Source of the DNA: Phycisphaerae bacterium
GTDB lineage: Bacteria; Planctomycetota; Phycisphaerae; UBA1845; UTPLA1
DNA: 33,006 nucleotides
Assembly: GCA_030432035.1 (NCBI GenBank)
Contig: JAUIHO010000029.1
Coordinates: 1 to 33,006 of the forward strand
Reading direction: 5' to 3'
In this document: piece by piece, positions 163-29,330 of the stretch
Layout of the letters: each line of letters begins with the position of its first letter
How positions within the stretch are numbered: position 1 is the first letter of the stretch
Translations under genes and position numbers: made by a program
The notes under the pieces: model-generated
What the model was told of the DNA's origin: nothing
Database searches by the model: none
The model's input: the letters and a program-made list of their open reading frames with translations, nothing else

Positions 163-173
163 ATTGGTTCGGG

Positions 174-956: not shown

Positions 957-1282
957 GCGTAAGTGGCTGCCGTTCTAACGCCCGCTCGGTGATCCGTGGC
1001 CGGTTAATGATAGTACCAATCAACTTCCTTCAATAACGGCAAGGTTATACCGGATTTTCGAGGGGGATGGGGGGAGGAGAGAACGGGCGCTCAGAATGGA
1101 ATACGCTCTCGGTGGGTGAGCGAAGGGGACGCCGGATAGGGCTATTGTAAGATTTGGTAGTCAGCGTTAACGAACGCTAAGGCGGAGGCATGCGGATACA
1201 TTGAGGAGTGCGGGCAAAGCGATAATTTGGGGCTGTAGGGGAAAGAATGTGTACCCGAACGGGAAACCGAAGCGCGCCAACA
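957..1282. other. Intergenic stretch with no gene
   Basis: I find no convincing coding sequence or RNA gene here. There is a purine-rich patch with two long G runs (about 1061-1080). The segment must hold the mlaE promoter on the minus strand, but no clear -35/-10 pair stands out. It ends at the hairpin repeat that flanks the next gene. Confidence 0.6.
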
Positions 1283-1305
1283 TCAGAGCCGCGGGCTGTG
1301 CCCGC
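1283..1305. repeat. Left copy of inverted hairpin repeat flanking the zinc-ribbon gene
   Basis: The sequence is TCAGAGCC followed by a hairpin with stem GCGGGC and a 3-base loop. Its reverse complement matches the copy at 2051-2074 except in the loop. The gene's stop codon begins 3 bases after this repeat. Confidence 0.8.
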
Positions 1306-1308
1306 ATG

Positions 1309-1965: not shown

Positions 1966-2050
1966 GGCACATATTCTATGCAATGGCCAAGTGACGATGA
2001 ATTCTGAAATTAACCTATAACTACAGCACTCCCGGTCGCCGTAAATCCCT

Positions 2051-2074
2051 GCGGGCGATAGCCCGCGGCTCTGA
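2051..2074. repeat. Right copy of inverted hairpin repeat flanking the zinc-ribbon gene
   Basis: A hairpin with GCGGGC and GCCCGC arms and loop GATA is followed by GGCTCTGA. It is the inverted mate of 1283-1305; stems and tail match, and only the loop differs (GATA here, ACA in the mate's reverse complement). Reading through it creates the spurious N-terminal extension of the zinc-ribbon gene. Confidence 0.8.
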
Positions 2075-2193
2075 CGGTGCGGCACAACATGCCCGGGCGC
2101 GGCGATACGCGCGTCAATGTGTCCAAATCAGACATCGCGCATGGCGTTGCAAAAAATCACCAAATCAAAAAATCGCTCGATCACCAAATCGCA

Positions 2194-3660: not shown

Positions 3661-3664
3661 GAGC

Positions 3665-3946
3665 TTATCCCTTCCGCTTAAACATGCTGAGCATGCGATT
3701 GGTGACAAGGAAACCGCCGACCACGTTGATGGTGGCGAACAAGACAGCCAAGAAACCGAGCGCTTGCGGCAAGACGGGGACGTCGCTGCCCGCGGCAACG
3801 ACGGCACCGATGAGCGTGACGCCGCTGATCGCGTTAGAGCCCGACATGAGCGGCGTGTGCAACGTCGGCGGAATCTTCGTGATGATTTCGAAGCCGATGA
3901 AGATCGCCAGTACGAAGATCGTTAATAACGTGATGATCGCATCCAT
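3665..3946 (-). CDS. pntAB: NAD(P) transhydrogenase subunit alpha, membrane part (alpha-2)
   Basis: A 93-residue protein equivalent to the C-terminal membrane domain of single-chain PntA, found as a separate subunit in many bacteria. It shows three hydrophobic segments: residues about 4-20 (IITLLTIFVLAIFIGFE), 40-52 (ISGVTLIGAVVAA) and 60-80 (LPQALGFLAVLFATINVVGGF). The connecting PPTLHTPLMSGSNAISG motif is highly characteristic. The ATG at 3946 follows the pntAA stop by 3 bases, and the stop precedes the pntB GTG by 4 bases, so the three are translationally linked. Together with pntAA and pntB it completes the split-alpha transhydrogenase. Confidence 0.95.
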   Translation of the reverse strand: MDAIITLLTIFVLAIFIGFEIITKIPPTLHTPLMSGSNAISGVTLIGAVVAAGSDVPVLPQALGFLAVLFATINVVGGFLVTNRMLSMFKRKG

Positions 3947-3949
3947 GAT

Positions 3950-5116
3950 TTATGCGGGGCTCCCTTCGGCGGCGGACAACGGTTCGAGCTTCATCGTCTC
4001 GCGTGTCCGCGCGTGCACGATCTCGCCGCCTTCCGTGATGACGGTGCCGGTGACGCACTCGTCGGCTTTATCGAGTTGGATTTGGCCTTCCTTCGTCAGG
4101 TCTTGCAGGAACGCCATGATGTTGCGCGAGTACATTTGGCTGGCGTGATACGGAATCGTCGCCGGAATGTTCTGCGGGCCGAGGATTACAACGCCGTCGT
4201 GTACAACGCGCTCGCCGAGTTGCGTTGATTCGCAGTTACCGCCGCCTTCTGCAGCAAGGTCCACGACTACCGAACCGGGCCGCATGCGACCGAGCGTTTC
4301 GTTGGTGATCAGGATCGGCGCTTTGCGCCCGGGGATGAGTGCTGTCGAAATGATGATGTCGGACTCGGCGGAATGATCGGCGATGAGTTGAGCCTGCTTC
4401 TGCTTATATTCCTCGGACATTTCCTTTGCGTAACCGCCAGCGTCTTCGGCGTCTTCGTTCGACGCAGCGACTTCAACGAAACGCGCGCCGAGCGACTCGA
4501 CTTGTTCTTTCACGGCGGGGCGTACGTCAAACGCTTCGACGACTGCGCCTAGGCGGCGCGCCGTCGCAATGGCTTGCAAACCCGCAACACCAGCACCGAG
4601 GATCAGCACCTTGGCGGGGGTAATCGTACCCGCGGCAGTCATCATCATCGGGAACATCTTGTCGAGTTCGGACGCGGCCAATAGCACGGCCTTGTAACCC
4701 GCGATGGTGCTCATGGAGCTGAGCACGTCCATCTTCTGCGCGCGACTGATACGCGGCATCATGTCCATCGCAATCGCAATCACGCCATGGTCGGCGAGGC
4801 GCTTCACGAGTTCGTGATTCACCAACGGTTGCAACACGCAGAATAGCATCTGGCCGCTGCGCAACCACGTGAATTCGGCATCGGTCGGCGGATGCGTCAG
4901 TACGATCGCATCGCATTGATTGCTCAAATCCGAAGCGCTGTCGGCGATGGTCGCACCGGCGGCGGTATAAGCGTCGTCAGTAAAACCGGCGGCCATACCC
5001 GCGCCGCTTTGAATGACGCACTCGAGGCCAAGTTTTTTGAGTTTGGTGACAGTCTCGGGCACCAGGGCGACCCGGTGTTCCCCTTCAATATAAGATTTCG
5101 GCGCGCCGATTTTCAT
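3950..5116 (-). CDS. pntAA: NAD(P) transhydrogenase subunit alpha, NAD-binding part (alpha-1)
   Basis: A 388-residue soluble subunit that binds NAD(H) and passes hydride to the NADP(H) site of PntB. The N-terminus MKIGAPKSYIEGEHRVALVPETVTKL is typical of the alanine dehydrogenase/PntA N-terminal domain. PRISRAQKMDVLSSM (about residues 141-155) is the loop near the active site, and VLILGAGVAGLQAIATARRLGAVVEAFDVRP is the Rossmann NAD-binding core. The EGGGN region follows further on. Length matches split-type alpha-1 subunits (about 380). A GGAG at 5126-5123 sits 6 bases upstream of ATG 5116. It is the first gene of the operon, so the promoter should lie in 5117-5370. Confidence 0.95.
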   Translation of the reverse strand: MKIGAPKSYIEGEHRVALVPETVTKLKKLGLECVIQSGAGMAAGFTDDAYTAAGATIADSASDLSNQCDAIVLTHPPTDAEFTWLRSGQMLFCVLQPLVNHELVKRLADHGVIAIAMDMMPRISRAQKMDVLSSMSTIAGYKAVLLAASELDKMFPMMMTAAGTITPAKVLILGAGVAGLQAIATARRLGAVVEAFDVRPAVKEQVESLGARFVEVAASNEDAEDAGGYAKEMSEEYKQKQAQLIADHSAESDIIISTALIPGRKAPILITNETLGRMRPGSVVVDLAAEGGGNCESTQLGERVVHDGVVILGPQNIPATIPYHASQMYSRNIMAFLQDLTKEGQIQLDKADECVTGTVITEGGEIVHARTRETMKLEPLSAAEGSPA

Positions 5117-5654
5117 GCAGATCTCCGATCGGGTGTTTCGCCTTATTTCTTCGGCAATTGCGGCGTGCGGGCGCAGCTATATACACGGGCGAAAACTTCC
5201 CTGCAGTGTATGCGCCTAACAAACCTAGCCAAGGGGCGTCGGGCGTTTCGCCAACGTCTCACACAAAGCGTTACGCACCAGTGATGGTTGCGCAGCGCTG
5301 CGAACAAACGCGCAGGATGTTAGTCGGCCTATTTGAAACCGAGGTAAATCGTCAAAGTTGCGCCAAGCCCGTGCCGCTGCTCTGTAAGCAGTGCCTAAAC
5401 GATAAAGCTGTGCCACTGCTCTATGAGCAGTGCCGACCCTGACAACGGGCAACCCTGTCCCATCTCTTACATTGAGGAGGAAAAGTCCGCGCGGCAGGGC
5501 ACCCGACCTTTACGACCCCTGAGTCAACATAACCACCCTCCTCCCAAAGCCACCGCACGGTAGGCCCGATTTACCAGTGGTATAGTTGACGAACCCGCCG
5601 AATCGCCCTCAAAGGTAGCGAGGTCGGCCCTGACCGGTCAGAATCAAGGGACGT
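5117..5654. other. Divergent intergenic region, no gene
   Basis: This 538-base region separates the minus-strand pnt operon from the plus-strand sigma factor and must contain both promoters. I see no credible coding sequence. It holds the paired hairpin repeats at 5371-5434 and a possible stem between GAGGAGG (5474-5480) and the CCTCCTC around 5538-5544. The sigma-factor ribosome-binding site AAGGGA is at 5646-5651. Confidence 0.6.
5371..5434. repeat. Two direct copies of a 25-bp hairpin repeat
   Basis: Copies at 5371-5395 and 5410-5434 start 39 bases apart. Both read GTGCC(A/G)CTGCTCT, then a short variable part, then AGCAGTGCC. Each is self-complementary (CACTGCTC / GAGCAGTG) and can fold into a hairpin, with compensating variation between the copies. 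No T-tract follows, so they do not look like ordinary terminators. Confidence 0.75.
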
Positions 5655-6257
5655 ATGAGCGAACCGACCGTCCGTGAACTTTGTGAAGCGCTTGCCGGGG
5701 GCGACGACCGTGCGTTTGAGCGGTTGTACGACCGGTATCACCAGCGTGTGCGGCTGGTGGCGTGGCGTATTTCGCATCGGGCGGACTGGGTGGACGATCT
5801 TGTAAATGAGGGTTGGACACGGGCGTTTCACCAGCGCTCGAAATATGACCCGAAGTACGACTTCATGGTCTGGGTGGTCGGGATCGTTCGGAATGTGTAC
5901 CGCGAATATTGCCGTCAGGGCCGGTTAACGATCCAGCATAATGACGATGTGGACGTGGCGGCGGACGGACCGACTGACGATATGTCTCCTGAGGCACTCG
6001 CGCACGAAGCGGAAGTACTTTTTTCGCTGAATGAATGCGTGTCGAAATTATCGGACGAAGATGGGGTAATTGTGCGGCGGCGGTTCTTTGAAGGGGCGTC
6101 GTTAAGGCTGATAGCACAAGAACTTAACCTCCCGGAGGCGACGCTACGGGCGTCGCGCGTACCGGGGGTGTTGGACCAGCTCCGTCGGTGCCTGGCGAAA
6201 AAAAATATCGAGATTCCTGCAGAATTTTCTGCGCGCGCCCTCGGTGATACGCAATAG
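5655..6257 (+). CDS. ECF-type RNA polymerase sigma factor
   Basis: A 200-residue sigma-70 family protein. Region 2 spans about residues 22-90: AFERLYDRYHQRVRLVAWRI, then DLVNEGWTRAFHQ and the promoter-melting segment FMVWVVGIVRNVYREYCR. Region 4 spans about residues 130-178: LSDEDGVIVRRRFFEGASLRLIAQELNLPEATLRASRV, a helix-turn-helix for -35 recognition. Regions 1 and 3 are absent, as expected for ECF factors. The last helix reads SRVPGVLDQLRRCL, where a proline-glycine pair interrupts the usual basic helix. The next gene starts 13 bases downstream, so they are probably co-transcribed. A membrane anti-sigma partner is expected there. The target promoters cannot be told from the sequence. Confidence 0.9.
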   Translation: MSEPTVRELCEALAGGDDRAFERLYDRYHQRVRLVAWRISHRADWVDDLVNEGWTRAFHQRSKYDPKYDFMVWVVGIVRNVYREYCRQGRLTIQHNDDVDVAADGPTDDMSPEALAHEAEVLFSLNECVSKLSDEDGVIVRRRFFEGASLRLIAQELNLPEATLRASRVPGVLDQLRRCLAKKNIEIPAEFSARALGDTQ

Positions 6258-6270
6258 CGTATGGAGTTCA

Positions 6271-6693
6271 ATGATGACTACGCGAAATGGCAATTTGGAA
6301 TCCCTGCTCGTCACACTCGGTGACGCCCGCCAGGCCGGTGCGTTCGACGGTGCGACGACCAGTTACCCGTGGCAGGCCACGACGGTTTCGGCTCAGAGCC
6401 CGAAGCAATCATGGCAGGCTCGGCTCTGGAAGGTGGTTCCGTTGGCTGCGGCAGCCGCAGTCGCTGTTCTTTTCGTGGGGCCGTCTTGGGCGCCTGAGGG
6501 GAGCGGCAGCCCGATTGTCCAAAACACGATCGATTCCGTCACAGGCCCGGAAACCTGTAAAACCATCGAAGGCGACTTCAATGGCGATGGCGTCAAGAAT
6601 GGGAAGGACATCCCGGTGATGATCGAGATGATGCGAAACGGCGAGATTACGATGTCGCCGGATGAGTACGCTCGAGCACTGCTAAACGGCTAA
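6271..6693 (+). CDS. Single-pass membrane protein with dockerin-like calcium loop; possible sigma-factor partner
   Basis: About 140 residues from ATG 6271 (a second ATG follows at 6274; GGAG at 6263-6266). An in-frame GTG at 6244 would overlap the sigma gene and is less likely. The first 50 residues are polar and presumably cytoplasmic. A hydrophobic stretch, VVPLAAAAAVAVLFVGPSW, is the only membrane segment. The exported C-terminus carries one EF-hand/dockerin loop, DFNGDGVKNGKDI, with D1, N3, D5, N9 and D12 in calcium-ligand positions, then two helices. By position it would be an anti-sigma or sensor for the preceding ECF factor, but the zinc anti-sigma motif (Hx3Cx2C) is absent. A strong terminator follows at 6724. 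Confidence 0.75.
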   Translation: MMTTRNGNLESLLVTLGDARQAGAFDGATTSYPWQATTVSAQSPKQSWQARLWKVVPLAAAAAVAVLFVGPSWAPEGSGSPIVQNTIDSVTGPETCKTIEGDFNGDGVKNGKDIPVMIEMMRNGEITMSPDEYARALLNG

Positions 6694-6723
6694 GCTCGCT
6701 ATCATAAAAATCTCTTGCAATGT

Positions 6724-6770
6724 GAGGCCGGGTTGGTGTCTAGGACGCCACCTCGGCCTCGCGTTATTTT
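6724..6770 (+). terminator. Rho-independent terminator of the sigma-factor operon
   Basis: A long stem from GAGGCCG at 6724 to CGGCCTC ending at 6760, with a few mismatches and a 4-6 base loop, is followed by GCGTTATTTT. It sits 31 bases after the stop at 6693. Confidence 0.8.
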
Positions 6771-6822
6771 ACGGGTCGGTTTTTCGAGTCATTAATGACG
6801 GTATCTTCCAGAGCATCCGTTC

Positions 6823-7706
6823 ATGAGTGGAACCTGTTTCAGTATCGAGGGTGAGATTGAAGAGCGGCTTTTGAAGCCGGTTACACTTCCACGCACAATT
6901 TGGGATCGCTTGAAAGGGCGCACGCGCTTCCGTGAACCACAGGTAGGCCACCGCGGAGACGTTGTAATCACCACGATTTATCTTCCCGAACTTGCCGAAC
7001 AACTCGCCCACGGCCTTCAGGAGTATGTGATACGAAGAGCAGGGAAGCCGCACGATCCGACCGACGCTACGCTCGATTACCTTAAATTGGCAACTTCGGC
7101 ACTAGTTCGACAAGAAAAACAACCGAGCAACGAGAATGCACCATGGCATCTTCAAGTCAATTTTAGTGGTTGTGCCGGCGCGGCAGATGTAAGCTCAGAG
7201 GTCGCGGTCCATTGGTTAGAAAATTGGATTCAGACTGATTGGTCGATCATTAATACTTAGCTTATTGCACAGACGGGATTTAAATTATCAATTGATTGGT
7301 CGCCCGAATTCGCCAAGCCGACCACAGTTTTCGTACCGGTCAATTGCTTCTACGTCCAACGCGTCAAAGATGGTGAATGGAATACGGTCGACACGACATA
7401 TTTCGTCAACGGTGATGAATGGGGCGGCGAACTTACAGATATTTTGTTGCGCAAGGAGTTTGAGCGACGAAATATTGGATGCGACCAATGCTTGTGCCAG
7501 ATTTGTGCACCTGATTTCAAGCCGGTTCAGTATGACTTGGAAACCGCTGCGAACAAGTATCGTACCTCAAAATCAATGTAGTGCGGTGGGGTGTATTCAA
7601 CTTACCGAAACGCGCGACATTCGAATTGGATTTTGCAAAGCTGCCACAAAGATCAATTCGACATCTTGTTTTGTTTCCCAATTCGATCCCGTTTATGCCT
7701 CGCTGA
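6823..7706 (+). pseudogene. Decayed gene of unknown family, broken by an in-frame amber stop and a frameshift
   Basis: Three pieces read as one protein. Piece 1 (ATG 6823 to 7257) gives 145 residues ending WIQTDWSIINT, then TAG at 7258-7260. Piece 2 continues in the same frame, from 7261 to TAG at 7579-7581, with protein-like composition (KPTTVFVPVNCFYVQRVKDG, then FVNGDEWGGELTDILLRKEF and CDQCLCQICAPDF) but no ATG or GTG start. Piece 3 is open in another plus frame across about 7545-7703 (VSYLKINVVRWGVFNLPKRA, then FELDFAKLPQRSIRHLVLFP), ending TGA at 7704-7706. The restored length would be about 290 residues. I do not recognise the family. Alternatives are two separate genes, or readthrough of TAG. 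The 3' end overlaps the convergent ATP-grasp gene by 14 bases. GC in 7441-7500 is 47%, below the surroundings. Confidence 0.55.
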
Positions 7707-8526
7707 CTGCGTCAATCAGACGTCGCCAAAGTCCCAATGGGTGAATCGCAGCGTAGCCGCTTTCTTGGCCGTCATTTAATTCGATGACGATCCAGTCGCC
7801 AGTCTCAGTTTGTGCCAAATCAATCACTTTAAAAGGTGCGTCGATTCGTTGCGATGCATCCCGCCCGACACGTAGCGCACGCTCCTGTTCGCTTTTTGAA
7901 ATTGCATAGGTCGATTCGGTCCAATAGCGATCGAAGCCAACGCACGTGTTGTGCCACCAGAAACTCCGAAACTCAAAAGAACTGGGGATTCGTTCGGGAT
8001 CAATATCTTCTACTCGACGAAGCGGCACGAATTGGCGACAGACAATCTCCTGCCATTGGAGTATCGGATCATTTTCGTACGCATCAAGCGCGCGTTCGCA
8101 TTCGTCTGGATTGTTAACGATTGACAGTGCACGCTGATGGCGGCTTGTTTGTCGCGCGCCTTTTATGAAGACTGGCCAACCTAACTCTTTGCCGACATCC
8201 GTAGCGGAGGGGCGCGTGTTAAACCAAAGGCTGCGTGGCGTAATGTCGCGTAGCGGCTCGTACCAGTATGGCAACTGACTGCATGCTAGGTGTTGTTGAG
8301 GCGTGTGTACGAGACGAACGCCGCGCGCGAGCAAATGCTGATACGCATCGCCGTATTCGTCGATCGCACCGACACGCGCGATTGCCTCAACTGGGTTGCA
8401 ATCGGGCCGAGCAACGCGGCAGCCGAACGATCCTCGAAAATCGAAATCATATTTCGGGTTGCCAATTGGGCACGCTAGAACGTGCAAAGCGTCTTCCAAA
8501 CAGAGCAGGTCTGATTGTTCCAGCAT
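7693..8526 (-). CDS. ATP-grasp domain protein (R2K-like)
   Basis: About 277 residues from ATG 8526. A longer frame to 8682 exists, but its N-terminus is a translation of the dispersed repeat at 8611-8653 (KPSPQPSP), so I reject it; the true start could also be a GTG a little upstream of 8526, since no good ribosome-binding site is visible. The C-terminal half resembles ATP-grasp proteins: a nucleotide-binding strand with lysine (GWPVFIKGARQTSRH, about residues 128-142), CRQFVPLRRVEDID, EFRSFWWHNTCVGFDRYW and the metal-binding end WIVIELNDGQESGYAAIHPLGLW. The ELNDGQ motif fits the R2K clade of ATP-grasp ligases, which are found in peptide-modification and RNA-repair contexts. The substrate is unknown. 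The gene is convergent with the decayed gene; GC is about 50% at 7921-7980. Confidence 0.75.
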   Translation of the reverse strand: MLEQSDLLCLEDALHVLACPIGNPKYDFDFRGSFGCRVARPDCNPVEAIARVGAIDEYGDAYQHLLARGVRLVHTPQQHLACSQLPYWYEPLRDITPRSLWFNTRPSATDVGKELGWPVFIKGARQTSRHQRALSIVNNPDECERALDAYENDPILQWQEIVCRQFVPLRRVEDIDPERIPSSFEFRSFWWHNTCVGFDRYWTESTYAISKSEQERALRVGRDASQRIDAPFKVIDLAQTETGDWIVIELNDGQESGYAAIHPLGLWRRLIDAVSEA

Positions 8527-8610
8527 GTCGGTCAATTGATTACCGGGTTTAGGAAGCGTGAAATCAAGGGATTGTACCTCATACAGATTAGAAAAGTGAG
8601 TGACGTCTAC

Positions 8611-8653
8611 TCCCTCTCCCTCGCAGGGAGAGGGCTGGGGTGAGGGTTTTTTC
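8611..8653. repeat. Dispersed intergenic repeat with hairpin (spurious PSPQPSP peptide)
   Basis: The stem CCCTCTCCCT / AGGGAGAGGG is followed by CTGGGGTGAGGG and six Ts. This type of repeat is widespread in bacterial genomes, and on the minus strand it reads as the artefactual peptide KPSPQPSP. The T-run could let it act as a terminator on the plus strand. A shorter relative occurs at 24251-24285. Confidence 0.8.
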
Positions 8654-8734
8654 CACAGCGCAAAACTTAAGAATCCACACAATTAATTTGGATGAGGGAG
8701 TAGGGTGGGTCATACTCAAGCAACCACACTACGT

Positions 8735-10174
8735 TTACTCCGCCTGTTCCTCCCGCATCACCACCGTCATCATCGAACGCTTGGGGCTGGTCAGCTCCGC
8801 CGCGTGGCCGTTCATTGACAAGCCGATCTCGTGATCGTCTTCCGTGGCGTTCATGAGGATGGCGACGACCGAACCGTCGGGATTGACGAAGGCCGTTGCG
8901 AGCAACTCGTCCCACATGGCCGACGCGATCACGCGTCGCGCGCCGGGTTGCACAAACTTCGAGAAGTGCCCGAGATAGTAATACGAATTCATGAACGTTA
9001 GTTCGCCCGTCTTCGTGTTCGCATGAATGGGGGCGTAGCAGAAGTTGCCCACATGGTTCGGTCCGCCGCGCTCGTCGAGCACCACGTTCCAGTCGGTCCA
9101 GGCGACGACGCCGTTGTTGAAATCGTGAATCATCGACTCACCGTAGCGTTCGCCCCATTGCCAATTGCCGATGCGATCGCCGTCATAATGTTCGGCGCAG
9201 CCTTCGGTGAAGACGAGCCCGATGTTGGGGAAGCGGTCTTGCACGAAGCGGACGTTCTCAAAGCGATCGGCAAGATACCAGTGAAAGCCAACGCCCCAAA
9301 CGTATTGCGCCGCGTCCTTGTCGCTAAGAATGGTGTTAGCGCGATGGTACATCAACCCGCGGTTGTGATCCCAAACGATGAGTTTCTTGTCGCCGAGCCC
9401 GGCTTTCTTTAGCGTCGGCCCCAGATGGTTCTTAACGAAGTCGCGCTCTTCGTCGGCGGTGAATACGCACGACTCCCACGTTTGCACGGCCATCGGTTCG
9501 TTCTGCACCGTCAGGCCCCAGATCGGAACGCCCGCTGCTTCGTAAGCTCTGATGAACTTCACGTAATAGTTGGCCCACGTCGCCGCATGTTCGGGTAAGA
9601 GCGAGCCGCCCTTGAGCATGCTGTTGTTGGTTTTCATCCACGCCGGCGGGCTCCACGGGCTGACGAACAGCTTGAGCGGATGACCGGCCTTTTCGGCTTC
9701 GGCCATCGCGGCTTTGATAAACGGAATGCGATATTGCTTGTCGTGCGCGATATCGAACGAGTCGAGCGAACTGTCGCCGTCGTTTACGTAGGTGAAGCTT
9801 TCGCTCGAGAAATCGCAACTGTGAATGCTCGTGCGCGCGAAGGTGTAACCGATGCCATTGGTGCGGCTGTAGTAGGCTTCGAGAATTTCGCGCTGCTTTG
9901 CCGGCGGCAGCTTCGCATACGTCTCGGCTGCCGCGTCGGTCAGCGCGCCGCCGATGCCTACGACGGTTTGAAACTTGGCGTTCGGATCGATGAAGATGAA
10001 TTTCTTAAACTCCGTCGGCTGCGCGACGGCTTTGGGCGTGATGGTTTTGGCTTTGGCCAAGCGCTGATCGGTATCGCGGGCGGTGATCCATACGTCGCCG
10101 CGCCAACTTTGGGCGTGCGCGAGGCTGGTGGTGCAAAGCGTAACTAATGTGAATAGGTTCAACCGTTTGGTCAC
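8735..10174 (-). CDS. Secreted glycoside hydrolase family 30 (glucosylceramidase-like)
   Basis: A 479-residue exported enzyme. The N-terminus is a signal peptide (residues 1-22, ending AHAQS). The (beta/alpha)8 catalytic domain shows GIGGALTDAAAETYAKL (73-89), RTSIHSCDFSSESFTYV (114-130), VSPWSPPAWMKTN (171-183), WGLTVQNEP with acid/base Glu226, GFHWY (296-300) and VFTEGC with the predicted nucleophile Glu324. The C-terminal beta-domain contains LGHFSKFVQPGARRV and VAILMNATEDDHEIGLSMNG. This layout is that of GH30 subfamily 1, retaining beta-glucosidases acting on glucosylceramide or related beta-glucosides. The length fits. No transporter or regulator is adjacent, so it looks like a stand-alone secreted polysaccharide- or glycolipid-degrading enzyme. 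The actual substrate cannot be decided from sequence. Confidence 0.92.
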   Translation of the reverse strand: MTKRLNLFTLVTLCTTSLAHAQSWRGDVWITARDTDQRLAKAKTITPKAVAQPTEFKKFIFIDPNAKFQTVVGIGGALTDAAAETYAKLPPAKQREILEAYYSRTNGIGYTFARTSIHSCDFSSESFTYVNDGDSSLDSFDIAHDKQYRIPFIKAAMAEAEKAGHPLKLFVSPWSPPAWMKTNNSMLKGGSLLPEHAATWANYYVKFIRAYEAAGVPIWGLTVQNEPMAVQTWESCVFTADEERDFVKNHLGPTLKKAGLGDKKLIVWDHNRGLMYHRANTILSDKDAAQYVWGVGFHWYLADRFENVRFVQDRFPNIGLVFTEGCAEHYDGDRIGNWQWGERYGESMIHDFNNGVVAWTDWNVVLDERGGPNHVGNFCYAPIHANTKTGELTFMNSYYYLGHFSKFVQPGARRVIASAMWDELLATAFVNPDGSVVAILMNATEDDHEIGLSMNGHAAELTSPKRSMMTVVMREEQAE

Positions 10175-10527
10175 GAGGTTTGCTCCATGATTCTGTTGTC
10201 GCTGAATCGGCTGCGCTGTTGAGCGTTCAATTTTTGGATGACCGAGTGTAAAGGAAGTCGGCGAGCGAATCGAATGGCGGAACAGTTTCAGAGGGTAGGG
10301 TGGGCCAAACTATGCAAACGCGCGCAAACGTGCGCAAATTTTGTTTCGGTTGGTGAGCATGGGGTAGGCATCGAAAAAAGGGCCTACTCGGCTCGCCGGT
10401 GGGTGGGATTGTGTTTGGGGAAGCTATGGAATTGATGGGCGGGCGGCGTCGTTATGTCGATATGGGGTATGCGACTTTGTGTTGACTTTTGTTCACGTTT
10501 TGTAGTTGTCTCAGGATCGAATCGTGA

Positions 10528-10553
10528 CCCCACGTTGGAGTACCAACATGGGG
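10528..10553. repeat. Hairpin with GAGTAC core
   Basis: The arms CCCCACGTTGG and CCAACATGGGG (one mismatch) enclose loop AGTA. The central TTGGAGTACCAA resembles the core of the flanking repeats at 10877 and 11529 (TTGAGTACAA). No T-tract follows. Confidence 0.6.
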
Positions 10554-10610
10554 CACCCGGTTACAAACAGGTAAGACCGCGCGGAATCACTCAATCGACC
10601 AACCAAAGCA

Positions 10611-10738
10611 AAGGTCGGCATGCTTGAGACGCGTGAATACGTCAATTTTAGATGATGATAGATGTTGACCACAATGTTCAGATTCCCTGAACCGAATTTC
10701 TTAGTATGCTATCGTCGTGTGTGACGCATGCCGACCTT
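10611..10738. repeat. 128-bp segment bounded by 13-bp inverted repeats
   Basis: AAGGTCGGCATGC at 10611-10623 is perfectly inverted at 10726-10738. AGGTCGGCATG occurs again in direct orientation at 10809-10819. The interior is AT-richer and non-coding. It could be a small non-autonomous element or an RNA stem. Confidence 0.55.
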
Positions 10739-10876
10739 GGAGTTGGGCTCGCGGTTGAGTGTTCCCGAGAACGCTAATGATTATTAGACGCACGAACGCG
10801 CCGCGGTTAGGTCGGCATGGCACCCGCGAAGGACCTAGGCTAGCTCAGCGGTATGCATGCCACCGGCCGGGTGTTT

Positions 10877-10903
10877 CGGTGGGTTGAGTACAACCCACAC
10901 TAC
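10877..10903. repeat. Palindromic repeat, left copy flanking the SUKH gene
   Basis: The core GTGGGTTGAGTACAACCCAC is an 8-bp-arm palindrome, followed by ACTAC. It matches the copy at 11529-11555 at 26 of 27 positions and in the same orientation. It lies 12 bases past the gene's stop codon. Confidence 0.8.
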
Positions 10904-10914
10904 TTCTGCAAGTA

Positions 10915-11469
10915 TTACCATCCTAGTTTATCAAGGACGGCGAGCACATCATTCATACCATACAAGATTTCTCTTAGATGATCGATTGCCATATCGCGGT
11001 ATTTAGGGCGTATAACAGAATTGTCGTCAACAATATCCGCCCCGGCTTCTTTGACAACCTTTCCGACAATACCTAAGCATGCAGCCATAGTGAAAATATC
11101 GAAAAAAATTGGAGCGGTTTCCCATTTACCAGTTCCGTGCAGAGCAAACAGGATCTTACCGTCGCGGAAGATAAATGGATCTCCGGATTCGCTTGCGACA
11201 ACAATCCATTCGTCGGGCCAGTCGGTAAACCGTTCTTTTGTTCGTGAGTGCCAACGATAGCCCTCCTGCAGGTCCCAAAGGGCTGATAGAGATGGGATTT
11301 CCGTAGGATTTCCATACCCGACTATCTCAATGTCCATTGGCCCGATCTCTTCATAGAACCGAGCGATCTCCACTGGCAGGGGAATTGATCCTGTCCAATC
11401 CGTTACCGGTTGCGGCCTGCAAATTCCGTGAGTGCTCAACAGTTCGATTAGTTCGTCATTTGAGATCAT
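10915..11469 (-). CDS. SMI1/KNR4 (SUKH)-like protein
   Basis: 184 residues. The body reads PLPVEIARFYEEIGPMDIEI (about 31-50), a glycine-rich turn, then EWIVVASESGDPFIFRDG (86-103) and ILFALHGTGKWETAPIFFDIFTMAAC. The order helix-FYEEIGP, then a strand pair with IVVASESGDPFIF, is that of the SUKH superfamily, many of which are immunity proteins for secreted nuclease or other toxins and some of which are housekeeping. No toxin gene is adjacent, so it could be an orphan immunity gene. No signal peptide or membrane segment is seen. Base composition is low: 54 of 120 bases (45%) are G or C in 11041-11160, against 62% in a sampled stretch of proS. It is bracketed by near-identical palindromic repeats, suggesting acquisition as a unit. 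The family assignment rests on pattern only. Confidence 0.6.
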   Translation of the reverse strand: MISNDELIELLSTHGICRPQPVTDWTGSIPLPVEIARFYEEIGPMDIEIVGYGNPTEIPSLSALWDLQEGYRWHSRTKERFTDWPDEWIVVASESGDPFIFRDGKILFALHGTGKWETAPIFFDIFTMAACLGIVGKVVKEAGADIVDDNSVIRPKYRDMAIDHLREILYGMNDVLAVLDKLGW

Positions 11470-11528
11470 CGAATTGAGCCGTGTAGTGGGCGGTGTAATC
11501 TAGTAGTGAAGCCGTTCGCGTCTATCGG

Positions 11529-11555
11529 CGGTGGGTTGAGTACAACCCACCCTAC
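11529..11555. repeat. Palindromic repeat, right copy flanking the SUKH gene
   Basis: Second copy of the core GTGGGTTGAGTACAACCCAC, followed by CCTAC. It is a direct repeat of 10877-10903 with one mismatch. It lies 59 bases upstream of the SUKH start codon. Confidence 0.8.
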
Positions 11556-11598
11556 GCGGAGATGCGCGTTATGTTGCCATCACCATCTGACGTGGCCA

Positions 11599-13428
11599 TC
11601 ACTTCCCCGCACCCAACCTCTCCAACTCCCCCTTCACCACTTCCTTCACGCGCGCGGCCGCCGTGCCCGGCGCGATCTTGTCGATGTCGTCACCACCCCG
11701 GCGTTTTAGTTCGACGATACCGTCGGCGAGGCCTTTGCGGCCGATGGTGACGCGGACCGGGATGCCGATCAGGTCGGCGTCTTTGAATTTGAAGCCGGCG
11801 CGTTCGTCGCGGTCGTCGAGCAACACATCGATGCCCGCCGCTTCCAGTTCGTCGTGTAACGCGCGGGCAGTGTTCATCACGTCTTCTTCTTTGGGGTCGA
11901 GCGCGAGGATGAGCACTTGGAACGGCGCGATCGACATGGGCCAAATGATGCCGCCGTCGTCGTGATGGGCTTCGATGGCGCTGGCCATGATGCGGTTGAG
12001 GCCGATGCCGTAGCAGCCCATGATCAGCGGGCGGGCTTTTCCATTTTTGTCTAAATAGGTGGCCTTCATCGATTCGGAATACTTGGTGCCGAGCTTAAAG
12101 ACGTGGCCGACTTCGATGCTTTTGCGCAAGCGAATCGCCGCGCCGCTGCCCTTGGGCGAAAGGTCGCCGTCGGTGACGTTGCGAATGTCGGACACGCTTA
12201 CGGTCTCGCCTTCGATGGAAAAGTCGCGCCCCGGATTGAGATTTTGAACGTGATAGCCGGTCTTGTTCGCACCCGTCACGCCGTTACGCATGACGGAAAC
12301 GGCCTGATCGACGACGAGCAGATAATCGCCCTTGAGGCTGTGCGGACCGGCAAAGCCGACGTCGGCACCGGTAAGGGCTTTGATGGTGGCTTCGTCGGCC
12401 AAGTCTAGGCTTGGGGCTTGGGGCTTGGGGCTTGAGGATTCAGCACCGAGCGTTTTCGTTAGTAATGCAATCGCCGCGCGGTCGAGTTTGTTTTCGTTGA
12501 CGTCGTGATCGCCGCGTACCAAGGCTACAACGGTTTTCGATTCGCGTTTTTTGTCCGGGCCGTAAGCCAGCGTGTAGACAAGTGTCTTAATCATCTGGCG
12601 CGCTTCGGTTTTCAGGAACGCGCAGACTTCGTCGATGGTGCGTTGGTTGGGCGTTTCGATTTCGGCGACGTCGGCCATGGCCGTGTCGTCTTGCGGAAGC
12701 GGGGCGCTAACGGCGCGTTCGGTGTTGGCGGCGTAGTCCTGATTTTCAGTCAGCGCGACCACGTCTTCACCGGCGTCGGTGAGCACCATGAATTCGTGGG
12801 AGGCATCGCCACCGATAGGGCCGCTTTCGGCTTCGACGGCGACGTAGGGCAGACCGCAGCGGGCGAAAATGCGGCAGTAAGCGTCGTACATTTTTTGATA
12901 GACGGCGTCGAGCGAATCGACGGTATCGTGAAAGCTGTAAGCGTCTTTCATCAGGAATTCGCGCGTGCGCAAGACGCCGCTCTTGGGTCGCGCTTCGCCA
13001 CGGAATTTGACCTGAATCTGATACATGCTGACGGGCAGTTGCTTATAGCTGTTGAGATAGGCCCGCGCGATATCGGTGATAACTTCTTCATGCGTCGGGC
13101 CGAGCACGGTTTGCGTGCGCCAGTCGCCTTCGGGACCACCGAGACGCAACAACACATCGCCCATGGCTTCAACGCGACCGGTCTCGTGCCATAGGTCGAT
13201 CGGATGTAACACGGGCATCATGAGTTCGATCGCGCCGGCGCGGTTCATCTCTTCGCGCACGATCTTTTCGACCTTGCGGAGGCTGCGGAAGCCAAGCGGC
13301 AGATACGAATACGCACCGGCCGAGAGTTGCCGCACCATGCCGGTGCGCAACATGAGTCGGTGCGACGCGGCGGTGGCGTCTTTGGGGGTTTCCTTTGAGG
13401 TGGTGATGAAAAAGTTGGACCAAAGCAT
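11599..13428 (-). CDS. proS: Proline--tRNA ligase
   Basis: A 609-residue class II aminoacyl-tRNA synthetase that charges tRNA-Pro. The N-terminus SKETPKDATAASHRLMLRTGMVRQLSAG matches bacterial ProS. The proline-site loop VLGPTHEEVITD is at 108-119 and motif 2, FRGEARPKSGVLRTREFLMKD, at about 142-162. An INS (YbaK-like) editing insertion occupies about 235-400. Motif 3 is MGCYGIGLNRIMASAIE, and the C-terminal anticodon-binding domain begins APFQVLILALDPKEEDVM. It is slightly longer than usual (about 570-580), partly because of an SSPKPQAPSLD linker encoded by a 7-bp tandem repeat at 12410-12437. It stands alone on its strand. The ATG at 13428 agrees with homologous N-termini. Confidence 0.96.
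   Translation of the reverse strand: MLWSNFFITTSKETPKDATAASHRLMLRTGMVRQLSAGAYSYLPLGFRSLRKVEKIVREEMNRAGAIELMMPVLHPIDLWHETGRVEAMGDVLLRLGGPEGDWRTQTVLGPTHEEVITDIARAYLNSYKQLPVSMYQIQVKFRGEARPKSGVLRTREFLMKDAYSFHDTVDSLDAVYQKMYDAYCRIFARCGLPYVAVEAESGPIGGDASHEFMVLTDAGEDVVALTENQDYAANTERAVSAPLPQDDTAMADVAEIETPNQRTIDEVCAFLKTEARQMIKTLVYTLAYGPDKKRESKTVVALVRGDHDVNENKLDRAAIALLTKTLGAESSSPKPQAPSLDLADEATIKALTGADVGFAGPHSLKGDYLLVVDQAVSVMRNGVTGANKTGYHVQNLNPGRDFSIEGETVSVSDIRNVTDGDLSPKGSGAAIRLRKSIEVGHVFKLGTKYSESMKATYLDKNGKARPLIMGCYGIGLNRIMASAIEAHHDDGGIIWPMSIAPFQVLILALDPKEEDVMNTARALHDELEAAGIDVLLDDRDERAGFKFKDADLIGIPVRVTIGRKGLADGIVELKRRGGDDIDKIAPGTAAARVKEVVKGELERLGAGK
12410..12437. repeat. Heptanucleotide tandem repeat inside proS
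   Basis: Three perfect CTTGGGG units and a fourth variant (CTTGAGG) lie in tandem within the editing-domain coding region. A 7-bp unit is not a multiple of three, so gain or loss of one copy would shift the proS frame. Confidence 0.85.
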
Positions 13429-13716
13429 CGGTTCTGGGCTCCGCAGGTATTGCGCTTCGTATCGGCGGGTTCATTTTGCCAATACGCGGTTTTTGGGTTT
13501 GTCAGCGGGGCAAGCCTACCTGAAAGCGGCAAATCTTGCACGGTCCGAGAGCGCCAATTGGGGCCGAAAGGATCGGTGCGTTTGAGGCGGAACGGAGTGC
13601 TTCACGATAGCGGACGATTCGAAGCTGAACTTGCGCGCCGCGCGATCCGATGAGAGCGCATCGAGCCGATTTGGCCACGCCGCCATTCCGCGGCGTGCAG
13701 CACGAGGTAGCCCATC

Positions 13717-14172
13717 ATGGATCTGAACTCAATCGAACGCCGCCGTGAAACCCGCGTCCGAGCCGATGCGCCCATTCAGCTTGTCGTTGACGGCATGGGC
13801 GGGGTTAGTCCCGGTCAGCTTGTCGACCTGTCGCATAGTGGCGCCGGGCTGATGACAACCAACGGTAATGCCCCCGGCATCGGCGAACGGGTGCAGATCG
13901 AGTTCTTGTATCCGCTGAACAACGAAGACATGCCTGAGACGCGAGTTGAGACCGGCCTGGTTTGCAGTGTGCGACACCCGAAGCGCGACTTGTCGCGCGT
14001 GGGCATTCGCTTCTTACAGACGAATGGCGAAGGTTGCCTGAGCGACGGACCGAAGGATGGCTTGGATAATCGTCGCGATCTGCCCGCGTTTTCGAATGAC
14101 GATGGGTTGTTCGGTAACACCGGTCGATGGGCGGGTGTGAACGCGAAGCAGGATTTGGCGACGATCAATTAA
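13717..14172 (+). CDS. PilZ domain protein
   Basis: A 151-residue cytoplasmic protein with a PilZ domain, a receptor for the second messenger cyclic di-GMP. The N-terminal arginine motif is RRRETR (residues 8-13), followed by the beta-barrel with DLSHSGAGL (about 38-46, the D/NxSxxG signature) and later strands VQIEFLYPL and SRVGIRFLQ. The last 40 residues (after about 110) are polar and probably disordered. No partner domain is present, so it would act as a stand-alone adaptor. A strong terminator follows at 14224, so it is monocistronic. Confidence 0.85.
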   Translation: MDLNSIERRRETRVRADAPIQLVVDGMGGVSPGQLVDLSHSGAGLMTTNGNAPGIGERVQIEFLYPLNNEDMPETRVETGLVCSVRHPKRDLSRVGIRFLQTNGEGCLSDGPKDGLDNRRDLPAFSNDDGLFGNTGRWAGVNAKQDLATIN

Positions 14173-14223
14173 CCGGTTGCTGATGATTGGCTAGCCGGTC
14201 GCCTCGATTACTCGAAAGAAATC

Positions 14224-14266
14224 AAACGGCCCATCACTTCTAATTGAAGTGATGGGCCGTTTTTTT
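14224..14266 (+). terminator. Rho-independent terminator after the PilZ gene
   Basis: A perfect 17-bp stem (AAACGGCCCATCACTTC and its complement) with loop TAATT runs into a T-tract, 52 bases after the PilZ stop. Confidence 0.92.
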
Positions 14267-14592
14267 GTGCTGATGATCGACGCCGTTGGATGGTATGGGT
14301 AGCGTTATGGAGTCGATAGATTGCTTTTGAATACACTATTGTGTTGCCGACGAGCTTGTGGACTAAGTTGGGGCTGTTATATCTTCATCATTCGTGGCGT
14401 GCGATAAATACCACACGTACCGAACCGCCGCGCCCGGGCCATTACGCGCGCTGGTTTGGTAGATGGTAGGCTGCACGGTCCTCCCGTATCTCGGTCCTGG
14501 GATGGTGCAGCGCGATCCGGGCAACCTATGATTAACAATTGTGTTTGACACATGGCGTCAACGGTACGCGAAATCATGCTTCAAGGAGTTGA
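14267..14592. other. Intergenic stretch with no gene
   Basis: I see no supported coding sequence or RNA gene here. Its 3' end carries AAGGAG at 14583-14588, a good ribosome-binding site placed for an ATG at 14592 that is out of frame with the downstream zinc-ribbon gene. Confidence 0.55.
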
Positions 14593-14619
14593 TGTATCCG
14601 TCGTCGAACGCTTATCAAC

Positions 14620-25702: not shown

Positions 25703-25931
25703 GATGATGCTCCTTTGCAGAAAGGTTCGATTTCGGCTTTATACGTTCGAATGCGAGCGACGTGCCCGCCGGATGTGTGAAAATCGTAGGCGATTGGGGC
25801 GGAATTGTCAGGTTTTTTGGGTTGTAACGGGGCGTGGCCCGTAAGTTTGAATTGCGGTCGTCGAAATGAGTAGAATAGGGTTGCCGGAGCGTACGACCAC
25901 GATTTGCAATCAATTACGTCGAGTTTTATTT

Positions 25932-26660
25932 ATGAATCTCTCAGTTCAGTTTCGTTTGATGGTCTTGGGCCTCCTTTCCGTCACAGCCCATGCATATGCT
26001 GGGCCTAGTTTCGATTTTTCGTTCTTCAGATTTAGAACAGGAACAACCGACTTCTCGATGCCATCGACGGTGAGGGATATTGCGAGCATTGATGCACCTC
26101 AGAACCCCACCACCGTGTTGCAAGACACCATCCTGGGTAACAATTTCTCGCGCACCCAGCTTGATGTAGCTTGGTCGGGCTACTCGGGTGCATTCAACTC
26201 CGCCATCAATCAGCATATCGAAGACATCGATTTCCTGACCACCTATCGCATCGATCTCGATTTCCATGCCGACATCGATCTCCTCCTGAATGTCGAAATA
26301 GATATGAATTACTCCACGCCGGTCGGTCAGTCGGCACGGGTAGCAGCGGGATTTAGCGTTCGCAACGACAGCCAGATTGAGGTGCTTATCAATAGCGACT
26401 TTCGTGGTGGAAACGGGTTTTCCGAGCCGGCGGCAGGCAACTTTGCACTCCACGAGCAGATTTATCTTGCGAACGGAAGCGATTACGAAATCAATGTCTC
26501 AACAAACGGCGAGAGCCTGAGCGTGAGTTCGTTCGGTAGACCAATCGACATCACCGGCTTCGTGAATTTTTCGATTCAACCGGTGCCCGAGCCGGGTAGT
26601 GCATCATTGATTTGTGTGGTAGCGATGGGCTTGGTCGGTCGCCGCCCTCGCCGACGGTAG
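25932..26660 (+). CDS. PEP-CTERM sorting-signal protein
   Basis: 242 residues from ATG 25932; an in-frame upstream start at 25866 would place 22 extra residues before the signal peptide (MNLSVQFRLMVLGLLSVTAHAYA). The mature part is strand-rich and rich in Asn, Asp and Ser, with no known domain. The C-terminus is a PEP-CTERM tag: VPEPGSASLICVVAMGLVGRRPRRR, that is VPEP, a short membrane helix and an arginine cluster, which directs export, exosortase cleavage and surface attachment. The TAG stop lies inside the left end of the MITE-like element at 26655, so the element abuts or shaped the gene's 3' end. No exosortase gene is in the window. Confidence 0.8.
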   Translation: MNLSVQFRLMVLGLLSVTAHAYAGPSFDFSFFRFRTGTTDFSMPSTVRDIASIDAPQNPTTVLQDTILGNNFSRTQLDVAWSGYSGAFNSAINQHIEDIDFLTTYRIDLDFHADIDLLLNVEIDMNYSTPVGQSARVAAGFSVRNDSQIEVLINSDFRGGNGFSEPAAGNFALHEQIYLANGSDYEINVSTNGESLSVSSFGRPIDITGFVNFSIQPVPEPGSASLICVVAMGLVGRRPRRR

Positions 26661-26798
26661 GTCAGGTGATAACCTGACAACGAGCGCAGGGGTGGCGTGA
26701 GAATCATCAAAACGGATGGGCCGTACCGCGGCATGGCACGAACGCTTTTGATGTTCGACATCGTCGGTGGCAGTGGCAGGATTTCACCTGCCCGACGG
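26655..26798. mobile_element. MITE-like element, copy 1 (144 bp)
   Basis: Terminal inverted repeats of about 24 bp share TAGG(T/G)CAGGTGATAACCTG, slightly degraded at the right end of this copy. Identity to copy 2 at 27684-27827 is 132 of 144 positions, same length and orientation. It has no coding capacity, consistent with a non-autonomous element needing a transposase elsewhere. CGG occurs just at both ends and may be a target duplication. Confidence 0.65.
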
Positions 26799-26902
26799 AG
26801 TGTGCGTATGCTGTATATATGGCGACGTCGTGTTGTAACGGTAGATTATTCGACCGGCCGTTTTGGAACGTCTTAACCTCATCCAAGCCAACCGCTACCG
26901 AG

Positions 26903-27433
26903 TTACCCCAACCGCTCCCGCAATATCCCCTTCAACGTCTCTGCGCGGTACGCGAAAATCCGTTTCACATCGCGGGCGACGAAGAACGTGTTGACCAGCG
27001 CGCCGCCGAGGGATTTGTAGATCACTTCGTCTTCCATCAGCGTGCCGCTGTTCATTTGCGTGAAACGATGCTCGTGATGCCAAAGGCGGTAGGGGCCTTT
27101 GATTTGGGTGTCGACGAATTTGTGGGGCGGGTCCCAATCGAGAATTTCGGTGCGCCAGCGAATCGGAATGCCGCGCAGCCGCAGCTTGTATTCGATAATC
27201 GCGCCGCTGTGCATGTCGATAGGTTTGGGCGTAAGCACCACAAAATTCAGCCACGGCGGCGTGATGTCCTGCAAATTGTGGGCATCGCTAAAGAACGCGA
27301 ACACGTCATCGATGTCGTACGGCAAAAACGTGCGTGCATAGAGCCGATAGCCACCCCGCGGGCCAGAGTTGGGACCGATGGTGAGCGAGTCTTCCATTTC
27401 AACGGCGATGTTGGGTTTGGCGGTCGCAATCAT
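26903..27433 (-). CDS. SRPBCC (polyketide cyclase/START-like) protein
   Basis: About 176 residues from ATG 27433, with AGAGGAG (27446-27440) 6 bases upstream; the frame is open to 27604 but that part crosses a hairpin and is not needed. The helix-grip fold is visible: YRLYARTFLPYDIDDVFAFFSDAHNLQDITPPWLNF, then the strand IRWRTEILDWDPPHKFVDTQIKGPYRLWHHEHRF and the C-terminal helix VARDVKRIFAYRAETLKGIL. Proteins with LPYDIDDVFAFFSDAHNLQDITPPWL are annotated as SRPBCC or cell-division-inhibitor-like proteins that pair with a nucleoside-diphosphate-sugar epimerase; none is seen here. Its GC (65% in 27121-27180) is like the host. It is bracketed by the two MITE-like copies. Confidence 0.82.
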   Translation of the reverse strand: MIATAKPNIAVEMEDSLTIGPNSGPRGGYRLYARTFLPYDIDDVFAFFSDAHNLQDITPPWLNFVVLTPKPIDMHSGAIIEYKLRLRGIPIRWRTEILDWDPPHKFVDTQIKGPYRLWHHEHRFTQMNSGTLMEDEVIYKSLGGALVNTFFVARDVKRIFAYRAETLKGILRERLG

Positions 27434-27525
27434 CGTCAGCTCCTCTGCATAAATCACGCGTTCAAATGGATGGTAGCCGCGATGTTCAAATTCGCGTTTG
27501 GAAGATTTGAATTTGGCCCCATATT

Positions 27526-27560
27526 TAGCCCTATGGCCAATGGCCAATGGCCTAGGGCTA
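27526..27560. repeat. Hairpin of the GGCCATTGGCC family
   Basis: A near-perfect 35-base palindrome, TAGCCC...GGGCTA around two overlapping GGCCAATGG units. No T-tract. It shares its core with the hairpins at 27612, 29269 and 29347. Confidence 0.7.
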
Positions 27561-27595
27561 ATCGGATCGACGAAAAACGTTTGTTTCCAATATCT

Positions 27596-27640
27596 AACGT
27601 CCACGAAAAAAGCCCCAGGCCATTGGCCGTGGGGCTAAGT
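27596..27640. repeat. 45-bp repeat identical to the ahcY terminator
   Basis: Identical over 45 bases to 29331-29375. The hairpin AGCCCC...GGGGCT with six As on its left would be a terminator for minus-strand transcription, but no minus-strand gene ends nearby on its right. It therefore looks like a duplicated copy rather than a working terminator. Confidence 0.8.
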
Positions 27641-27683
27641 GTCGGGATACATCGATGCTCGTGGCGAGATACATCGATGGGCG

Positions 27684-27827
27684 CGGTAGGTCAGGTGATA
27701 ACCTGACAGCGAGCGCAAGGGTGGCGTGAGAATCATCAATACGGATGGGCCGTACCGCGGCGTGGCACAAACGCTCTTGATATTCGACATCATCGGTGGC
27801 AGAGGCAGGTTATCACCTGCCCTACGG
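27684..27827. mobile_element. MITE-like element, copy 2 (144 bp)
   Basis: Same length as copy 1 with 12 differences. The left end reads TAGGTCAGGTGATAACCTG and the right end, inverted, TAGGGCAGGTGATAACCTG. An extra copy of the last 15 bases (TCACCTGCCCTACGG) follows at 27833-27847. It lies in front of the PQQ-like gene and causes the spurious N-terminal extension of that frame. Confidence 0.68.
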
Positions 27828-27951
27828 CCAACTCACCTGCCCTACGGCGGATTGTGACGGATCGGTGGCGGACGGGGCAAAAGCGGTCGATTTTTTGTTG
27901 ACCGTCCTACAATCCCGGCGTTCAGGCCTTTCATTTTTAGGAGACATCATC

Positions 27952-29223
27952 ATGCGACTTTGCGCCCGATCGTATGCGGCGGCGACCTTCGTCTTTCTTT
28001 GTTGCGTCTCGGCGACGGCCTTTGCCGGCGATTCATTGGCACCGACCGACTGGCCGCAATGGCGCGGTCCGGGGCGCGCTTGCCGCGTGCCCGAATCGCC
28101 AAAATGGCCAGACGATCTCGATGGGTTGGAGCAGTCGTGGCGTATTGAGATGGCGGGGCCCAGCTATTCGGGGCCGATCGTTGCGGGCGACCGCGTGTTT
28201 GTAACGGAGACGGTCGACAAAAAGAAAGAAATCGTCCGCGCGCTTGATCGCAAGACGGGCAAAGAGCTATGGAAGGTGGATTGGCTCGGTTCGATGTCGG
28301 TGCCGTTCTTCGCGGCGCGCAACGGCAGTTGGATTCGGTCGACACCGGCGACGGATGGCGAGTCGCTCTTTGTCGCGGGCATTCAGGATGTGTTGGTGTG
28401 TTTGGATGTGAAGACCGGCAACGAGCGCTGGCGCGTGGATTTCAAGGAACGCTACGGCACCAGCAATCCGGACTTCGGCTGCGTCTGCTCGCCAATGGTG
28501 CGCGGTGATTACGTTTACATGCAAGCGGGCGGCTCGTTTGTGAAGTTAAACAAGAAAGACGGATCGTCGGTTTGGCGCACGCTCAACGATGGCGGCGGCA
28601 TGTACGGCAGCGCGTTTTCGTCGCCGGTGTTTGACGAGATTGCCGGTAAGCCGCAGGTGATCGTGCAAACGCGCGAGAAGTTGGCCGGCGTCGACGATGC
28701 AGACGGCAAGGTTCTATGGGAACAAAAGGTACCGGCGTTTCGCGGCATGAATATCCTCACGCCGACGGTTTTTAAGAACGGCATCTTCACGAGCTCGCAC
28801 CGTAATGCGAGTTATTTTTACCAAGTGAGCGAGAGCGGAAATGGCTTTAATGTCGAAGAAACCTGGTCGGACAAAGCCAAGGGCTACATGTCTTCGCCAG
28901 TCGTCGTGGGGGATTATGCGTACCTGCATCTAGGGAACGGTCGTATCTCCTGCTTCGATCTCCGCAGCGGCGAAGAACAATGGCGCACCAAGAAGTTCGG
29001 CGATTACATGAGTATGGCGGTGCAAGGCGATAAGATCCTCGGCCTAGATATGCGCGGCGGGCTGGTGTTGTTTATGGCAAATCCCAAAGAATTCGAACTG
29101 CTCGATAAGAAGAAGGTATCCGACGAAGAATGTTGGGCGCATGTCGCCGTTAGCGGCAATGACATTATTATTCGCGAACTCAACGCCGTTTCGGCTTGGC
29201 GTTGGAAAGCGAATAGCGAGTAA
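27952..29223 (+). CDS. Secreted PQQ-like beta-propeller protein
   Basis: 423 residues from ATG 27952, behind AGGAG (27939-27943, 8-base spacing). The signal peptide is about residues 1-25 (RSYAAATFVFLCCVSATAFAG). The mature protein opens TDWPQWRGPGRACRVPE and shows blade motifs ALDRKTGKELWKVDW, CLDVKTGNERWRVDF, KLNKKDGSSVWRT, GVDDADGKVLWEQKV and CFDLRSGEEQWRTKK, ending VSAWRWKAN. It is a paralogue of the protein at 24383-25702 and, like it, is probably an exported scaffold or binding protein with no visible dehydrogenase active site. A rho-independent terminator follows at 29269. It is the last plus-strand gene before the convergent ahcY. Confidence 0.87.
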   Translation: MRLCARSYAAATFVFLCCVSATAFAGDSLAPTDWPQWRGPGRACRVPESPKWPDDLDGLEQSWRIEMAGPSYSGPIVAGDRVFVTETVDKKKEIVRALDRKTGKELWKVDWLGSMSVPFFAARNGSWIRSTPATDGESLFVAGIQDVLVCLDVKTGNERWRVDFKERYGTSNPDFGCVCSPMVRGDYVYMQAGGSFVKLNKKDGSSVWRTLNDGGGMYGSAFSSPVFDEIAGKPQVIVQTREKLAGVDDADGKVLWEQKVPAFRGMNILTPTVFKNGIFTSSHRNASYFYQVSESGNGFNVEETWSDKAKGYMSSPVVVGDYAYLHLGNGRISCFDLRSGEEQWRTKKFGDYMSMAVQGDKILGLDMRGGLVLFMANPKEFELLDKKKVSDEECWAHVAVSGNDIIIRELNAVSAWRWKANSE

Positions 29224-29268
29224 ACGAACGCCCAATCGCCGTTTAGGTAAATCAATAACGACGACAAT

Positions 29269-29300
29269 TAGCCCCCGGCCAATGGCCGGGGGCTATTTTG
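29269..29300 (+). terminator. Terminator after the PQQ-like gene (GGCCAATGGCC core)
   Basis: Stem TTAGCCCCCGGCC / GGCCGGGGGCTA around AAT is followed by TTTTG, 46 bases after the stop. Confidence 0.88.
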
Positions 29301-29330
29301 TTAGTAGAGGCAAGCTTGTTTTTTGGATAC

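Follow-up and report, generated by a model that had tools for sequence, protein, structure and literature searches.

Probable REPINs around an SRPBCC gene in a planctomycete genome and a RAYT gene with matching REPs in a sister species

Anatomy of the repeats around the SRPBCC gene

The window (the whole stretch of DNA that was analysed, 33,006 nucleotides) carries an SRPBCC gene bracketed by two copies of a 144-bp repeat. The two copies have the same orientation and align with 12 mismatches and no gaps. The features of the locus are listed below.

26655..26798, + strand: copy 1 (putative REPIN), head-to-head REP dimer with a 96-bp interior
26657..26678, + strand: left REP of copy 1, intact, GTAG followed by a 7-bp stem and GATA loop
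26658..26660, + strand: TAG within the tag of this REP, at which the upstream ORF (25866-26660) stops
26775..26796, - strand: right REP of copy 1, degenerate, with a GTCG tag and a mismatched stem
26903..27433, - strand: SRPBCC (Polyketide_cyc) gene, bracketed by both putative REPINs; ORF open to 27604
27684..27827, + strand: copy 2 (putative REPIN), head-to-head REP dimer whose ends can pair as a single long imperfect hairpin
27686..27707, + strand: left REP of copy 2, intact; hairpin of the 22-mer, z = -4.8
27804..27825, - strand: right REP of copy 2, intact; stem pair 2 is the G-C variant
27833..27847, - strand: 15-bp REP fragment TCACCTGCCCTACGG, probable remnant of a second tandem dimer

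A first-pass annotation of this DNA had described two direct 144-bp copies with 12 differences, ending in inverted repeats, carrying no gene, and followed after copy 2 by an extra 15-bp piece of the right end. This description was borne out: the copies lie where it had placed them, the fragment was located at 27833-27847, and many further copies of the gene-less element are present in the genome. The inverted-repeat ends were also confirmed, that on the right of copy 1 being degenerate.

The left end reads GTAGGTCAGGTGATAACCTGAC and the right end of copy 2, as its reverse complement, GTAGGGCAGGTGATAACCTGCC; the degenerate right end of copy 1 is GTCGGGCAGGTGAAATCCTGCC. The REP unit consists of a tag, a 7-bp stem and a 4-base loop (GTAG-GTCAGGT-GATA-ACCTGAC), and both ends face outward. 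Indeed, the terminal inverted repeat is really two outward REPs, each end forming its own hairpin. In folding analysis, copy 2 (z -3.9) and one dimer of the sister species (z -7.2) both paired end to end as one hairpin, and copy 1 gave two separately folded ends (z -2.5). An Rfam scan of positions 26000-28500 for structured RNA returned nothing approaching any gathering score.

Copy 1 overlaps the upstream ORF 25866-26660, which takes its TAG stop from the left GTAG tag. The C-terminus of this ORF reads, by eye only, like a PEP-CTERM anchor. Judging from the sister species, the SRPBCC gene probably starts at 27433. Another palindromic repeat, AGCCCCCGGCCAATGGCCGGGGGCT, has T-rich sequence after it and lies in the window at 29261-29303 and also at 27540-27640. 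It has dozens of matches on both strands of the sister genome and is terminator-like, with no GTAG tag.

The REP family in two sister species and its probable RAYT in one of them

The genome of the window (G000) is a MAG of 354 contigs, 92% complete. A 20-mer end pattern, allowing up to 3 mismatches, detected 41 REPs in it, versus 0 for a reversed-pattern control. Twenty-six of the 41 pair up as 13 head-to-head dimers, with an outer length that is mostly 133-147 bp (two are longer, about 160 bp). The search for more copies in the genome and its relatives, proposed in the first-pass annotation, was thus productive, as the same-genus sister species G002 contains 43 REPs at up to 2 mismatches. 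None was found in the other 59 of the 60 relatives searched, and the third genome of the genus (G001, 85% complete) yielded no REPs. Among 84,980 species genomes scanned, the exact 22-mer was present only in CP030884.1 ('Planctomycetaceae bacterium isolate ECT2AJA-110-A', a MAG), which appears identical to G002. As far as it was searched, the REP family appears confined to one planctomycete genus.

We compared 86 distinct REP instances, nearly all from G000 and G002. The GTAG tag is kept in 75 of them, and stem pair 2 is found as T-A (60), G-C (20) or C-G (1). The switch between T-A and G-C is the compensatory change that would be expected of a selected hairpin. The family displays the unpaired GTAG 5' of a short palindrome and the many copies of the GTAG REP superfamily, together with the inverted REP pair, spacer and hairpin-folding doublet of REPINs (BIMEs). 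A cognate RAYT flanked by the same REP was found in G002, and none in the G000 assembly.

This gene (G002:1249083-1249661) is a Y1_Tnp gene located between two exact head-to-head copies of the REP. The terminal inverted repeat around it, GTAGGTCAGGTGATAACCTGACTCTGCCACCAGCGA, is perfect over 36 bp and consists of the two REPs plus 14 bp. The 193-aa product scored 169 bits against the NCBIfam model NF047646 (REP_Tyr_transpos), for which the cut-off is 80, and matched the E. coli TnpA-REP structure 4er8 with E=4.6e-33, the HUH (PDHLHC) and Tyr (DYIHYNPVKHG) regions being aligned. The HUH motif, the catalytic tyrosine and a score above the curated cut-off, which define RAYT/TnpA-REP proteins (NF047646), are therefore all present. 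A transposase matching the terminal repeats, which the first-pass annotation had recommended looking for, exists in this relative and is flanked by exactly this REP.

Other REPs (GTAGGGTGGGTY..., GTAGGTCGGGTC..., GTAGGGTCCGC...) flank three further RAYTs of G002 and one of G000, in agreement with the repeat-specific REPtrons of the literature (PMC3733652; PMC8266576). The RAYT/REP pair GTAGGGTGGGTYGTACTCRACCCACC is common to several genera of the family (G000:C274, L023; G002:3540536, L164; G005:C134, L170). Two more RAYTs of G002, at 2318937 (L165) and 1990313 (L167), have REP types of their own, GTAGGTCGGGTCATCGACCCGAC and GTAGGGTCCGCACCGCGGACC. The RAYT-like gene at L024:560-1290 has inverted repeats around CCCAAGTTGGTACTCCAACTTGGG without GTAG and resembles published 'TIRtrons'. 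A literature search on RAYTs in Planctomycetes found no paper combining both.

The closest matches to the G002 RAYT in the genome of the window are 56%, 43% and 28% identical, and this REP is found at none of them. Several genes of that genome were considered as a mobiliser and rejected: L021 and L022 are IS200-type with no GTAG REPs around them, C274 (L023) carries the GTAGGGTGGGTY REP type, and C109, C292 and L024 are all without this REP. The orthologous position of the G002 REPtron (contig 289, L019) holds only a fused REP palindrome, GTAGGTCAGGTGATAACCTGACCTAC, made up of the left REP and, attached to it, the outer CTAC of the right one. A deletion between the ACCTGAC repeats of both ends would yield exactly this sequence. 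Beyond CTACG, however, one flank of the contig 289 site is different, with about 1 kb more sequence in G002, and the deletion is therefore an inferred event. The dimers of the window's genome have probably been orphaned of their helper, a wording chosen because a cognate RAYT could lie in the 8% of G000 that is missing.

Age and probable local origin of the copies

From 15.2 to 33.0 kb, the window is syntenic with G002 at 80-90% identity. In both species, the SRPBCC gene is flanked on either side by dimers, and most other dimers also occupy positions common to the two genomes. The shared positions indicate that the dimers are older than the species split and are old residents rather than recent insertions. 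The first-pass annotation had considered that a regulatory or structural element would be favoured if all copies were orthologous with conserved flanks; this is partly the case, since most copies, including both of those in the window, are shared. No DNA match to window positions 1-14594 was detected in the compared stretch of G002, a large content difference or rearrangement in which no REP is involved.

Tracing the C251 and C77 flanks between G000 and G002 gave no clean empty site; both showed replaced gene content and no clean joins. In G001, taken as outgroup, the flanking genes were on different contigs.

Interior identity is 0.92 between copies 1 and 2, 0.68-0.87 between these copies and the G002 dimers of the same locus, and about 0.5 to other loci. 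The same local clustering of interiors was observed at a second locus (contig 43 and its contig-join counterpart). In a tree of interiors, which has too few sites, the clade of the window locus alone received fair support (89/98). Since interiors are specific to a locus, the most likely origin of the copies is duplication or gene conversion within that locus, and not separate arrivals. Two independent transpositions might be envisaged, as the spread of REPINs is attributed to RAYT and REPs lie on many contigs, but the interior of the window copies is common only to other copies at this locus and the second locus behaves in the same way; we regard this origin as very unlikely. Moreover, each window copy is closer to the other than to the G002 dimer at its own position, suggesting conversion or re-duplication in the window lineage.

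The right-hand position differs between the two species. In G002, a dimer (C) of which only the left 87 bp are present is directly followed by a complete one (D, L112:4429-4570); the window has one complete dimer, then the 15-bp REP end, and a similar downstream flank. The simplest reading of the fragment would be an ancestral tandem pair trimmed differently in each lineage. Alternatively, part of the right end might have been duplicated.

In ten positional pairs, the ends are 92% identical (437/474) versus 71% for the interiors (486/683; Fisher p about 7e-20), a contrast that is overstated by the choice of loci by their ends. Between loci, interiors differ by about 50% and ends are near-identical, which simple copying of whole REPINs does not explain. 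Near-identical ends with drifting interiors would call for constraint or exchange between copies.

Recombination between the direct copies, which the first-pass annotation expected to be able to delete the 1-kb SRPBCC segment, has left no such trace, as the gene is present in both species. The idea itself fared better elsewhere: the one dimer on contig 43 of G000 corresponds in G002 to four direct dimers separated by zinc-ribbon genes, a collapse or expansion of the kind imagined. The G002 array (L117:2100-4374 joined to L102:1-1009, at contig ends) contains small zinc-ribbon genes (C..C-YDL...CPECG) between its dimers, and at least one of these reading frames appears to enter a REP and to take its stop from it. 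The PEP-CTERM-like gene of the window locus has as its positional counterpart in G002 a dimer (A) with a zinc-ribbon gene, and two other genes on contig 77 correspond in position to an ABC-transporter pair plus a second dimer of G002. These differences in gene content beside dimers are suggestive only, as the first 14.6 kb of the window, where no REP is involved, likewise had no match in the G002 stretch compared. We tentatively raise the idea, which we find doubtful, that direct REPINs of this genus bound interchangeable small gene cassettes; these would be gained, lost or amplified by dimer-dimer recombination, with the REP often supplying the stop.

Nature of the repeats and comparison with known systems

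The repeats are very probably REPINs, that is head-to-head GTAG-REP dimers (BIMEs), non-autonomous elements that a cognate RAYT/TnpA-REP HUH tyrosine transposase would mobilise in trans. On single-stranded DNA, this enzyme would recognise the GTAG tag and hairpin of each end, and would cut and join the strand. Mobility by the G002 RAYT is the best mechanism that can be inferred from the sequences compared. The window copies themselves are old and probably no longer mobile, since a fused REP palindrome replaces the RAYT at the orthologous site.

The first-pass annotation had called the repeat MITE-like. This remains apt for a short, gene-less element with inverted ends, many copies and a matching transposase in a relative; the kind of element is nevertheless a REPIN/BIME and not a classical MITE. 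A MITE that depends on a DDE transposase and duplicates its target site would share the first four of these properties, but each end is here its own hairpin with a GTAG tag, and matching ends enclose the gene of a Y1/HUH RAYT. Inspection by eye of the sequence next to the window copies revealed no target-site duplication; HUH single-strand chemistry is not expected to produce one. The classical DDE reading is thus largely refuted, and we give it almost no credence.

The dimers could also be fixed regulatory or structural elements (RNA hairpins at mRNA 3' ends, stops, terminators, or nucleoid/gyrase sites) whose transposon origin is now irrelevant. The positions common to both species would fit such a role, as would the provision of a stop codon to the upstream gene and the ability of both halves to fold. 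The better conservation of the ends in the ten positional pairs points the same way, but that test is biased by its choice of loci. In addition, an exact RAYT partner exists, the right REP of copy 1 has decayed, and copy 2, situated between divergent genes, is at a place that requires no terminator. We consider a fixed role rather unlikely, though worth keeping in view beside the REPIN reading.

As REPINs, the repeats extend the REPIN/RAYT systems of planctomycetes by a pair of sister species, one of which retains the helper RAYT, apparently lost from the other. The pair offers a natural comparison for the fate of a REPIN population after helper loss. Interiors that follow the locus, with uniform ends, form a pattern to be explained by constraint, gene conversion or repeated end replacement.

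REPINs are hairpin-forming REP doublets (Bertels and Rainey 2011, PMC3116915). As in that description, we find an inverted REP doublet with a spacer that forms a hairpin, occurs in many copies and is linked to a specific RAYT. In contrast to it, there are here tens of copies, the interiors are locus-specific and the cognate RAYT is absent from this assembly. GTAG REPs have been described as a GTAG tag with a 5-13 bp stem and a short loop, predominantly in head-to-head dimers and with repeat-specific REPtrons (Di Nocera et al. 2013, PMC3733652), and families of them occur in Planctomycetes, including R. baltica (PMC3733652). Tag, stem, loop and head-to-head dimers all agree with this description.

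The single RAYT gene flanked by its own REPs resembles a REPtron with TnpA-REP (4er8; PMC8266576), and the short, perfectly palindromic REPs resemble published group 3 (PMC8266576). Unlike those systems, the predicted RAYT has 193 aa and a perfect terminal inverted repeat of 36 bp, in which its two REPs are extended by 14 bp. The Y1/HUH enzyme and the hairpin ends are shared with IS200/IS605, whereas the IS200-type genes of the window's genome (L021, L022) are without GTAG REPs and the RAYT scores as REP_Tyr_transpos, not as IS200. Altogether, likened to the GTAG-REP families by their described anatomy, the repeats represent a known type of element in a new setting.
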